From: a virus | Length of the DNA: 64,000 nucleotides | Virus record (IMG/VR): IMGVR_UViG_3300032285_001268 | Coordinates: 121,263-185,262 of that record | Reading direction: 5' to 3' (one strand) | Part shown: positions 1,334 to 4,634 of the stretch, piece by piece | How the letters are laid out: every line of letters starts with the position of its first letter | Position numbering within the stretch: position 1 is the first letter of the stretch | Notes under the pieces: generated by a model | Told to the model about the DNA's origin: nothing | Seen by the model: the letters and a program-made list of their open reading frames with translations, nothing else | The model's database searches: none | Position numbers and translations under genes: made by a program

Positions 1334-3526
1334 TTAGCCTAATCTATTACCGCCGGATTGAACAGCTGACGCTAGTTTTTCACTATAGCTGGCTGTTTGT
1401 TCCATCCAATGAACAGCCATGCTCATAGTCTTATTTAACATAGTTATACCCTCACTCATATCTTTTTGTAGATTAGTTTCGTCTACAGAAGATGAAGTTG
1501 TCTGCGGTTTTGGCTGTTCAAATACCGTTGGCTGTTGTGGAATTTCTTGTCTAATATCTGCACCATTTGGAGGATTAAAGTCAATAGATGGAGGCATAAA
1601 GTTAGGCATTGACCTGCCCATTGTTTCAAGATTACCAAACATCTGTTGGAACGGTCCGAACATAGTCTTAATGTCTGGTAACTCTGTACCAGCATTAAAT
1701 TTAGGAAATGTCTTAAACTGCTTTTCAAGTTCTGGTGCTATTCTATCAACATTTCCTGCAAAGTCATTGCCAAAGTTAGACATCTGGCCCATCATACGCT
1801 GTGTCTGTGGATTACCTATAATGTCTTTGAACATCTCTGGAAACTTGGCCAATTGATCTCTAACGAACTCGCCACGCTGTCCAAACGGAACCGTAGCTTC
1901 CGCTTCACCTGCTTTTTCGTTAACTTGAATAATACGACCTTTAGGACCAGCAAACCAATCACCCCAGATAGCTTTAGAACCAAACTCTTCTCGTTCTGGC
2001 TGTCCCCATGTCTGCCCACCACCAGTTGGTGTATTGCTACGTCCAGTCACGTTTGGAACCAACGATTGTATATTTGATGCAAGGCCTTGTGTTGTACGAA
2101 TGCCTGTTAATGCTCTGTTAAACTTAGCTAGATTGCCGCCAGCAGATCCGACTTCATCATTCATTTTCTTTAATTCGTTAGCAGCCATAGATCCCATTAG
2201 CTTGCCCATACGATCTGCGCCACGGATCGCTTCTGCTAGTTCTGCTCCAGGTAAAGGTTTACCGTCTGGTCCCTTTCCTTGTGTGTCTCTTTCAACTTTT
2301 TTTCTTAAACTTAATTCTGCACTTTCAAAGCTAACACGATCAGATGTTAGAGCTTGTAATCGTTTTTGTTCAGCTTCTACCGCTCTAGTATAAGTTACTA
2401 CACCTGAATATACAGCTTTAACTTCAGCTTCATCGCTGTTGGCCACACGTTGCCTATACTGGCTATTGTTCATAGCCTTAGCCAGCTCAGTCCTATCCAT
2501 CTCTAAGCGTCTTTGTGCTATTTCAATACGTTGTTGATCACCGGCTTTTGATGCGGCTTCTAATTCTGCAAAAGAATTTTGCAGTCTGCTGACTACTGCT
2601 GTAGGTAATGCACCTGCTATTGCATTTGCGGCTTCACTGCGGATCGGTCCTGATGCTAGTTCTCCGATAAAGTTTGTTACAGCATCGCCCATAGTTGAAA
2701 ATTTCTGAACAGCCGAAGTAGCTTGTCGCTGATATTCTTCGCCTTTTTCTGCAATACCTGCATCAACTTCTGCTTTGTCTAGAACACGCTTAGTAGCTTC
2801 CATTTGCGATTCTTTACTCTTACCAGTTATCTTAGCAAGCTCGTCCATTTGCAGGGCTAGTCCAGCGGCACTGGCTATCATTCTCTGCTTAGACTCAGCA
2901 TCAACTTTTGAAAATCCTCTAGAGTTATAGTTGGCTAGTAGTGTAGCTTCTGCCATTTCTCTAGTACTAACACCTGCTTTACCTAGTTCAATACCGATGT
3001 CACTGTTGACTACTTGTTGTGTTATATCCAACCATGCCTTAGCTGATCGGTTAACACCACCTGCTAAACCAACAAGCGAGCTAGAATTGTATTTGATTAG
3101 TTGTTCAAACTCAGGAAGTGTCAGCTGTGCGCCTTTGATTGCCTTGTTGGCTGCCCCTAGGTCATTACTAAAATTTAATCCTACAGCACTAGTACGTCGA
3201 AGCGTTTGATCAACATCACTGACAGCATCAATCATGTCTTTTATACCAAGACCTGCAAGTCGTCCAACCATGCCAAAATTATCAAGCGGCATTGCTAGTA
3301 ATTTTGCAATATCAGCGGCACTGGCAGTGCCTTTGATAATATTCATGCCGGCGCCTTCAACATTTTTTACAAAACTTTCAACACCCTTAAACAGGGAATC
3401 TAAAAAGTTACCACTGTAGGTTGCTGTATCGCTACTGCCACGTAATGTTGCGCCTCCTGGAGAGCCGTTGCGGCTTGCTCGCATTTCATCAATCAGCGCA
3501 TCAATTTTTTGTTCTAGGCTGCTCAT
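1334..3526 (-). CDS. Putative tail tape measure protein
   Basis: 730 residues, mostly predicted helical, with Ala/Gly-rich hydrophobic stretches (about 60-115, 285-310) and long charged coiled-coil-like segments (about 310-450), ending in a Pro/Gln-rich tail. The region around residues 125-200 (LTLPEFEQLIKYNSSSL, then a sequence with an LG.A..ST..M pattern) resembles segments common in phage tape measure proteins. These set tail length and sit inside the tube. At about 1.5 angstrom per residue, 730 residues would span roughly 110 nm, close to a T4-like tail. The gp26-like chaperone gene starts 63 bases away in the opposite direction. A minor virion protein with a similar helical make-up is the main alternative. 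Confidence 0.6.
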   Translation of the reverse strand: MSSLEQKIDALIDEMRASRNGSPGGATLRGSSDTATYSGNFLDSLFKGVESFVKNVEGAGMNIIKGTASAADIAKLLAMPLDNFGMVGRLAGLGIKDMIDAVSDVDQTLRRTSAVGLNFSNDLGAANKAIKGAQLTLPEFEQLIKYNSSSLVGLAGGVNRSAKAWLDITQQVVNSDIGIELGKAGVSTREMAEATLLANYNSRGFSKVDAESKQRMIASAAGLALQMDELAKITGKSKESQMEATKRVLDKAEVDAGIAEKGEEYQRQATSAVQKFSTMGDAVTNFIGELASGPIRSEAANAIAGALPTAVVSRLQNSFAELEAASKAGDQQRIEIAQRRLEMDRTELAKAMNNSQYRQRVANSDEAEVKAVYSGVVTYTRAVEAEQKRLQALTSDRVSFESAELSLRKKVERDTQGKGPDGKPLPGAELAEAIRGADRMGKLMGSMAANELKKMNDEVGSAGGNLAKFNRALTGIRTTQGLASNIQSLVPNVTGRSNTPTGGGQTWGQPEREEFGSKAIWGDWFAGPKGRIIQVNEKAGEAEATVPFGQRGEFVRDQLAKFPEMFKDIIGNPQTQRMMGQMSNFGNDFAGNVDRIAPELEKQFKTFPKFNAGTELPDIKTMFGPFQQMFGNLETMGRSMPNFMPPSIDFNPPNGADIRQEIPQQPTVFEQPKPQTTSSSVDETNLQKDMSEGITMLNKTMSMAVHWMEQTASYSEKLASAVQSGGNRLG

Positions 3527-3588: not shown

Positions 3589-4413
3589 ATGGCAGAAAAT
3601 CCGTTAAAGCAGTATTTTAGGCAACCAAAAATCTACATTAGTTTGCCCAGCAAAGGTGTATACAACAAGATTGGCAGTATCCAAGGTGATCCTACAAACT
3701 TGCCAGTATTTGGTATGACCGGCATGGACGAAATCATGATGAAAACTCCAGATGCTCTAATGACAGGTGAAAGTACTGTAACAGTTATACAAAGCTGTTG
3801 TCCTAATATCAAAGACGCATGGGATGTTAATATTCTCGATACTGATTTGATATTTGCGGCCATACGTATAGCTACCTATGGTAACACCATGCCCATGGCC
3901 AACACCTGTAGCAAATGCAGTGAAACTACAGAATTCGATGTGGATTTGACCAAAATTATCGATCACTATTCATCACTGTCCTTTGACAATAAAATTGTAC
4001 TAGACAATCTAGCCATCAATCTGCACCCGTTAAATTTTAAACAAAGTACAGAATACAGTCTTAGAAACTTTGAAGTACAAAAGAAGCTACAACAGTCATC
4101 TACACTATCTGAAGAAGAACAGAAAGAGTTGATCACACAAATTTTCAAAGACATGGCCATAACACAGTTCAAGATGTTTTGCGACATCATTGAAAGTGTT
4201 GAAACTCCAACAGGTCTAGTCACTGAAAAAACATTCATTGCTGAATGGTTGGAAAACTGCGAAGGCATAGTCTATGACAAGATCAAAGATCATTTTGATC
4301 AAAATAGAGAGCGTATGAAAATCCCAGGACAAACTGTAACCTGTACAGCTTGTAAACATGAAGATGAAGTAGTTATTACGCTAGACCAAGCTGATTTTTT
4401 CGTCAACGCCTAA
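3589..4413 (+). CDS. gp26-like baseplate hub/tail assembly protein (zero-frame product)
   Basis: 274 residues resembling the T4 gp26-type baseplate assembly family, which acts in building the baseplate hub and is not a major virion component. It has two CxxC pairs, C107/C110 (CSKC) and C252/C255 (CTAC), likely forming one zinc ribbon. It starts at 3589 with GAGGTG upstream. The last codons run GAT TTT TTC, a perfect X-XXY-YYZ slippery heptamer, just before TAA. The -1 frame is open beyond it (see 4395-4634). A short product plus a -1 extended product next to a tape measure gene is the hallmark of tail assembly chaperones such as lambda gpG/gpGT. The family name is fairly secure; the chaperone role is inferred. 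Confidence 0.75.
   Translation: MAENPLKQYFRQPKIYISLPSKGVYNKIGSIQGDPTNLPVFGMTGMDEIMMKTPDALMTGESTVTVIQSCCPNIKDAWDVNILDTDLIFAAIRIATYGNTMPMANTCSKCSETTEFDVDLTKIIDHYSSLSFDNKIVLDNLAINLHPLNFKQSTEYSLRNFEVQKKLQQSSTLSEEEQKELITQIFKDMAITQFKMFCDIIESVETPTGLVTEKTFIAEWLENCEGIVYDKIKDHFDQNRERMKIPGQTVTCTACKHEDEVVITLDQADFFVNA
4395..4401 (+). promoter_or_regulatory. -1 ribosomal frameshift site (T TTT TTC)
   Basis: Slippery heptamer T TTT TTC in the correct phase of the zero frame (codons D269 GAT, F270 TTT, F271 TTC). A weak 5-bp stem (CTAAT 4410-4414 with ATTAG 4418-4422) begins 8 bases downstream. The zero frame stops at 4411, and the -1 frame is open from 4395 to TGA at 4632. Confidence 0.7.
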
Positions 4414-4634
4414 TTAGATTAGACGCCTCGGGTATTGAAGAATATCTAGTTGGGCTTGATAAAGAAGTTAGAGAAATTAAAAAAGAATTAGTTCAGTTAA
4501 GTTGGTATATGCGAGGCGGTGTAACAGTAAATGATTTACTGCATATCTACAGCTTTGACGATAGAGAAGCCATGTACGAAATTGTCAAAGGCAACTTTGA
4601 ACTAACCAAAAACTCAGGAATGCCTTTAATTTGA
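4395..4634 (+). CDS. -1 frameshift extension of the gp26-like protein (gp51/gpT-like)
   Basis: Open in the -1 frame and without any ATG, GTG or TTG start before the internal methionine of WYMRGG, so it can hardly be made alone. Frameshifting at 4395-4401 would join 271 residues of the gp26-like protein to 77 new residues, about 348 in all. The extension is charged and helical (EVREIKKELVQLSWYM), followed by RGGVTVNDLLHIYSFDD. This is the size and character of the second tail-assembly-chaperone domain, thought to recruit the tape measure protein. T4 has a separate gene 51 next to 26; this may be the fused equivalent. The stop overlaps the end of the convergent gene at 4626 by 9 bases. Confidence 0.65.
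   Translation, partial: FFRQRLIRLDASGIEEYLVGLDKEVREIKKELVQLSWYMRGGVTVNDLLHIYSFDDREAMYEIVKGNFELTKNSGMPLI

Follow-up and report, generated by a model that had tools for sequence, protein, structure and literature searches.

The locus at positions 3589-4634 of the window (the whole 64,000-nucleotide stretch of DNA that was analysed, taken from an IMG/VR virus record of 185 kb) raises the question of whether one gene can yield two proteins, a short one that ends at its own stop codon and a long one that is read on in the -1 frame. An earlier note, made from the sequence alone, had proposed exactly such a programmed frameshift. On the evidence described here, we consider it very probable that the gene encodes a tail assembly chaperone in two forms by way of a programmed -1 frameshift, and that it belongs to a T4-like phage.

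The gp26-like gene and its slippery heptamer

The zero-frame ORF at 3589-4413 (+ strand, TAA at 4411-4413) encodes a 274 aa protein that we annotate as a putative gp26-like short tail assembly chaperone (TAC-N). It matches Pfam PF12322 (T4_baseplate) with 53.1 bits against a cut-off of 24.5 (E = 4.6e-14) and phrog_150 (baseplate hub) with E = 9.2e-18, and these matches uphold the gp26-like identity first suggested for it. The AlphaFold model of this gp26-like core (pLDDT 88) is similar to models of T4-like gp26 proteins in BFVD, with E-values down to 4e-23; sequence and fold searches of the PDB retrieved no significant match among solved structures. A search of the window's own record for a second gp26 (PF12322) copy found none. 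In BFVD, the core model also matched uncharacterised proteins of the jumbo phages Erwinia Special G, phiEaH2, Ralstonia RSF1, and RP12 (E 1e-7 to 9e-5, TM about 0.4-0.55), and judging from these predicted folds, they may be unrecognised tail chaperones.

The 3' end of the ORF reads GCT GAT TTT TTC GTC AAC GCC TAA. The slippery heptamer TTTTTTC at 4395-4401 (+ strand) lies in the X_XXY_YYZ phase, i.e., it is read as T_TTT_TTC in the zero frame, and the TAA at 4411 begins 16 nt past its first T. The heptamer and the phase described in the earlier note are therefore exact to the base, and the site is conserved in relatives, as described below.

Conservation of the site

A protein search retrieved seven IMG/VR relatives with 46-52% identity, and all seven have an in-phase TTTTTTC at the same place. 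For a wider set from the window clade, 80 loci were fetched with the alignment, of which one ran off its contig and 79 were scored, some of them repeats of the first seven relatives. The alignment of homologues that had been proposed as a check found both the heptamer and the -1 frame kept throughout, with TTTTTTC in phase in 79/79 window-clade loci and exactly 10 nt ahead of the stop in 80/80 cyanophage-type loci, although many of these loci are mutually related and the counts are not of independent events. In the window clade, the heptamer lies 10, 16, or 19 nt ahead of the zero-frame stop, and wherever the contig reaches the end of the -1 frame, this frame is 79 codons long counted from the first TTT. 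As the distance between heptamer and stop varies, it is the site that is conserved rather than the stop.

The spread of the site over distant isolates is a stronger argument than the locus counts. It was found in most of the jumbo or T4-like isolates checked, namely Atu_ph07, Phosso, 121Q, RaK2, GAP32, PA5oct, Vibrio 2.275.O, and the cyanophage S-PM2, and also KVP40, Asswx_1, LPCS28, PhiW-14, and SCTP-2. The heptamer occurs as the variant TTTTTTT in phiM7 and as TTTTTTG in RHph_Y68 and phiM9. As a control, we looked at how Phe-Phe is encoded elsewhere in the same contigs, and T_TTT_TTC was used in 0/22, 5/72, and 6/125 cases (0-7%). Since the heptamer is present in all of the relatives and this coding of Phe-Phe is rare at other positions, the site is not there by chance.

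Some phages depart from the pattern. Maynard (Ackermannviridae; L202, ~2741) and Vibrio K362 (L199, ~2723) keep the -1 extension with a non-canonical AATTTTC and ACTTTTC, respectively, at the site. The gp26-like gene of Bacillus phage SP-15 (L205, ~2700-2940) ends GAA TTT TTT CAC ..., and the extension is read in +1; by its sequence, SP-15 may use a +1 shift. IME-SM1 (L197, 2719-2726) has five Ts where its relatives carry six, a difference due either to a miscalled homopolymer or to a changed mechanism.

The -1 frame extension

The extension (4401-4634, + strand) comprises 77 codons and a stop, with the -1 frame TGA at 4632-4634, and a -1 shift would give a fusion product of 348 aa (271 + 77). 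The frame contains no ATG, GTG, or TTG ahead of the ATG of WYM, in agreement with what had been read from the sequence. Across 74 window-clade sequences, residues F1, F2, R3, L6, K29, W37, R40, G41, and D56 of the extension are invariant, and the differences per codon position in the -1 frame (0.40/0.24/0.56) follow a coding pattern. The extension is coding and conserved in this frame. AlphaFold predicts helices at residues 11-38, 45-50, and 54-74 with a mean pLDDT of 90. When the extension model was searched against BFVD, the best match was an unnamed 72-aa phage protein at E = 0.03, which is not usable as an identity.

A conserved coding frame behind a stop codon could also be a second gene, with the extension translated alone from an internal or re-initiation start through translational coupling at the stop. 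This is how gp51 is annotated in GenBank for cyanophages and KVP40 (two CDS), and possible starts do exist there: cyanophages often have an ATG at +5, many cyanophage-type loci have one soon after the stop, and in KVP40, PhiW-14, phiM9, and RHph_Y68 an ATG overlaps the stop. A separate small protein is thus possible in many cyanophage-type loci. As the explanation of the arrangement, however, two genes seem very unlikely to us. No ATG, GTG, or TTG occurs within the first 20 codons past the site in 51 of the 76 distinct window-clade loci, no strong Shine-Dalgarno accompanies the starts present in the remaining ones or any cyanophage start, and in S-PM2 the ATG annotated for gp51 is located at the base of a 14-bp stem downstream of the site. 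Two genes would also give no reason why all window-clade and cyanophage-type loci carry TTTTTTC in phase. We therefore rejected an independent start for the extension, which most window-clade loci lack.

A stem-loop downstream of the heptamer

The DNA alignment shows GCCTAATTAGA and then, downstream, TCTAGTTAGGCT. RNAalifold yielded a consensus stem of 11 pairs, not remarked on in the earlier note, that starts 6 nt past the heptamer. In the window, the stem has 12 bp (all on the + strand): after a 6-nt spacer (4402-4407), the 5' arm GCCTAATTAGAT at 4408-4419, which takes in the zero-frame stop, pairs with the 3' arm ATCTAGTTGGGC at 4444-4455. Both arms are supported by covariation. In the consensus stem, 97.5% of cells were paired, as opposed to 15-56% when the partner was slid, and changes on both sides were seen in 15 cells compared with 3.7 in shuffles; four pairs have such both-side changes.

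To this we add a recoding test with 150 synonymous recodings in the -1 frame, which left the protein unchanged. The window's stem scored 11.0 against a recoded mean of 5.6, and 0/150 recodings reached the window's score. The same test fell below 0.05 in 58/89 window-clade and jumbo loci and in 16/30 cyanophage loci, i.e., about one third of the window-clade and jumbo loci have no significant anchored stem by this measure. Atu_ph07 has a perfect stem (GGCTCTTTGT/ACAAAGAGCC) 6 nt downstream of its heptamer. In one locus of the alignment (L131), the zero frame stops already before GCC and GCCTAA is nonetheless kept, as would be expected if these bases belong to a stem arm. For the mixed cyanophage set, RNAalifold predicted no structure; once the set was split in two, each group gave a different stem, so the cyanophages do not all share a single homologous helix. 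A search of Rfam found no known element at the frameshift site.

The stem-loop covaries, and its spacing fits a downstream stimulatory RNA structure (about 5-9 nt). By analogy with such structures, it has a putative role in stimulating the frameshift, and it would then offer a handle on the ratio of short to long product. The programmed -1 frameshift that the earlier note had proposed thus gains support from the site, its phase, its conservation, the coding -1 frame, and the covarying stem-loop, and we regard it as very probable on this sequence evidence.

The cyanophage loci (L018-L097) have a Shine-Dalgarno-like GGAG, GAGG, AGGA, or AAGG roughly at -17 to -7 relative to the heptamer in 70/80 cases. 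Its source is a LEG motif, whose Glu is encoded by GAG in 31/43 distinct loci, GAA being commoner elsewhere. This stretch could act as a dnaX-like stimulator; no Shine-Dalgarno-like stretch was found upstream of the heptamer in the window clade.

Transcriptional slippage, in which the T6 run would insert a base into some of the mRNAs and so join the frames, is a natural thought where a homopolymer is involved, as a one-base insertion leads into the -1 frame, but we judge it highly improbable. The run is short, relatives have TTTTTTG or, keeping both frames, only T4C at the site, and a stem-loop that starts 6 nt downstream folds once the RNA polymerase has moved on, in agreement with slippage of the ribosome instead. 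That an indel from sequencing or a true frameshift mutation has broken the gene, making it an artefact or pseudogene, is almost certainly wrong, since for all that homopolymer runs are error-prone and IME-SM1 has five Ts at the site, the comparative data refute it with the same arrangement, both frames conserved, in well over 100 contigs as well as isolate genomes.

Relation to T4 gp26 and gp51

PF12322 matches both T4 gp26 (E 8.8e-64) and T4 gp51 (E 3.9e-52) over the whole profile. The C-terminus of T4 gp51 is matched by phrog_634, as is S-PM2 gp51, and the cyanophage extensions align with the C-terminus of T4 gp51 (hhalign 96.5%, E 7e-10). By these sequence comparisons, T4 gp26 and gp51 are paralogues, gp51 being the core plus a C-terminal extension. 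As both belong to PF12322 and the tail of gp51 resembles the cyanophage extensions, the T4 pair would be the counterpart of the short and the long form, each with a gene of its own. The proposed link of T4 gp26/gp51 with tail assembly chaperones is supported by this paralogy and by the match between the cyanophage extensions and the gp51 tail.

The window's extension had been called gp51-like or gpT-like as well, and neither label has gained support. The window-clade extension matches those of rhizobial jumbo phages (hhalign 99.3%) and of RaK2-like phages (97.6%), in contrast to 0.1-4% for the T4 and cyanophage extensions, and a PHROG search gave no match between the window's extension and phrog_634. 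A profile built from jumbo extensions only reached up to 24% against T4/cyanophage, in the same register. The positional equivalence of the window's extension and the gp51 tail appears clear from the sequences, and homology by hhalign extends only to the jumbo extensions.

The window and T4 thus share the core family PF12322, present alone in gp26 and together with an extension in gp51. They differ in that T4 lacks a slippery site and has its two genes placed divergently, whereas the window has one gene with a frameshift and an extension sequence that has no detectable homology to that of gp51. Cyanophages such as S-PM2 and KVP40, with their gp26 and short gp51, are like the window in having the core, an in-phase TTTTTTC near the stop, and an open -1 frame; their extension is of the gp51-like sequence type, and an ATG often lies near the stop. 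S-PM2 and the window both have a stem downstream, though the two stems are unrelated in sequence.

The neighbouring gene and the comparison with lambda

A 730 aa gene at 1334-3526 (- strand, divergent) lies between the tail assembly chaperone gene and the portal gene gp20. It weakly matches the tape measure family phrog_10613 (E = 0.0015) and occupies the same position as a structural gene found between portal and gp26 in RaK2, 121Q, and PA5oct, with 21% identity to the RaK2 counterpart (E = 0.001). The tape-measure-like neighbour of the earlier note does adjoin the chaperone gene, but it is divergently transcribed, and the resemblance is weak. On the other side of the chaperone gene, the minus strand at 5791-5930 matches the Rfam Polynucleobacter-1 RNA (RF01718) at 77.5 bits, where the gathering score is 37, and there is no long ORF at that place.

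The lambda gpG/gpGT proteins and related frameshift tail assembly chaperones were reportedly covered by Xu, Hendrix and Duda in 2004. The likeness to lambda G/GT that had been pointed out is supported: the window has a short protein with a presumably rare -1 C-terminal extension, a heptamer just before the stop, and an adjoining gene with a weak likeness to tape measure genes. The window differs from lambda in its protein family (PF12322, with Cys pairs), in using U6C and not lambda's heptamer, and in having a covarying downstream stem-loop and a divergently transcribed neighbour.

Proposed mechanism

Most ribosomes would stop at the TAA and release the 274-aa gp26-like protein. A minority, paused by the stem-loop 6 nt downstream, would slip by -1 on U_UUU_UUC, with tRNA-Phe re-pairing from UUU UUC to UUU UUU, and would go on to make the 348-aa protein with its predicted helical tail of 77 residues. 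We infer the chaperone function from position, arrangement, and the literature on lambda and T4. If lambda gpG/gpGT are a guide, the tape measure protein would be coated by the short form and would receive tail-tube subunits from the rare long form, and neither form would remain in the finished virion. In T4, two genes would provide this pair, with gp26 as the short form and gp51 as the long one, read in frame.

Previous work and implications

Vladimirov, Gautam and Davidson (Virology 2022, 566:9-15) are said to have identified the tail assembly chaperone genes of T4-like phages. The link between gp26/gp51 and these chaperones, which the earlier note had implied to be new, was thus published in 2022, going by two papers that cite that work: PMC10885494 describes T4-like phages as having one short and one long, fused copy, and PMC12846349 mentions poly-T slippery signals in T4-like TAC-N genes. 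According to a 2016 review (PMC5009743), G-T frameshifting is widely conserved and T4 is an exception. In cyanophages and vibriophages, gp51 is without roughly the N-terminal 200 residues of the T4 protein (PMC3037559), as the frameshift would explain. The chaperone of phage Adele (Pakpunavirus/Vandenendeviridae; PMC12846349) is likewise a -1 frameshift product with a poly-T motif, inferred by conservation; its motif is GTTTTT, and the portion of the text seen does not mention a stem-loop.

The main concept and the kind of system are therefore already known. The excerpts of the citing literature, through which the 2022 paper is known to us, make no mention of the stem-loop, this clade, or RaK2-like phages, and as far as can be told from them, what is new comprises the stem-loop, the occurrence in this clade, and the wide spread among jumbo phages. 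None of the fetched records joins the two frames, so the long chaperone is missing from the annotation of jumbo phages and cyanophages.

We see an even chance that one ancestral signal, U6C with a stem-loop about 6 nt downstream, was kept across the T4-like superfamily. Taken as a whole, this reading would span cyanophages, rhizobial and RaK2-like jumbo phages, and this uncultured clade, with the stem and extension sequences replaced while the signal was kept; T4 and its near kin would have lost the signal by duplication, Ackermannviridae would have a degraded site, and SP-15 would have gone over to +1. If so, T4 would owe its exceptional state to a later loss rather than to a difference present in the ancestor. 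Our findings suggest that the rule of nearly all long-tailed phages holds across the relatives of T4, and that T4 itself departs from it by gene duplication.
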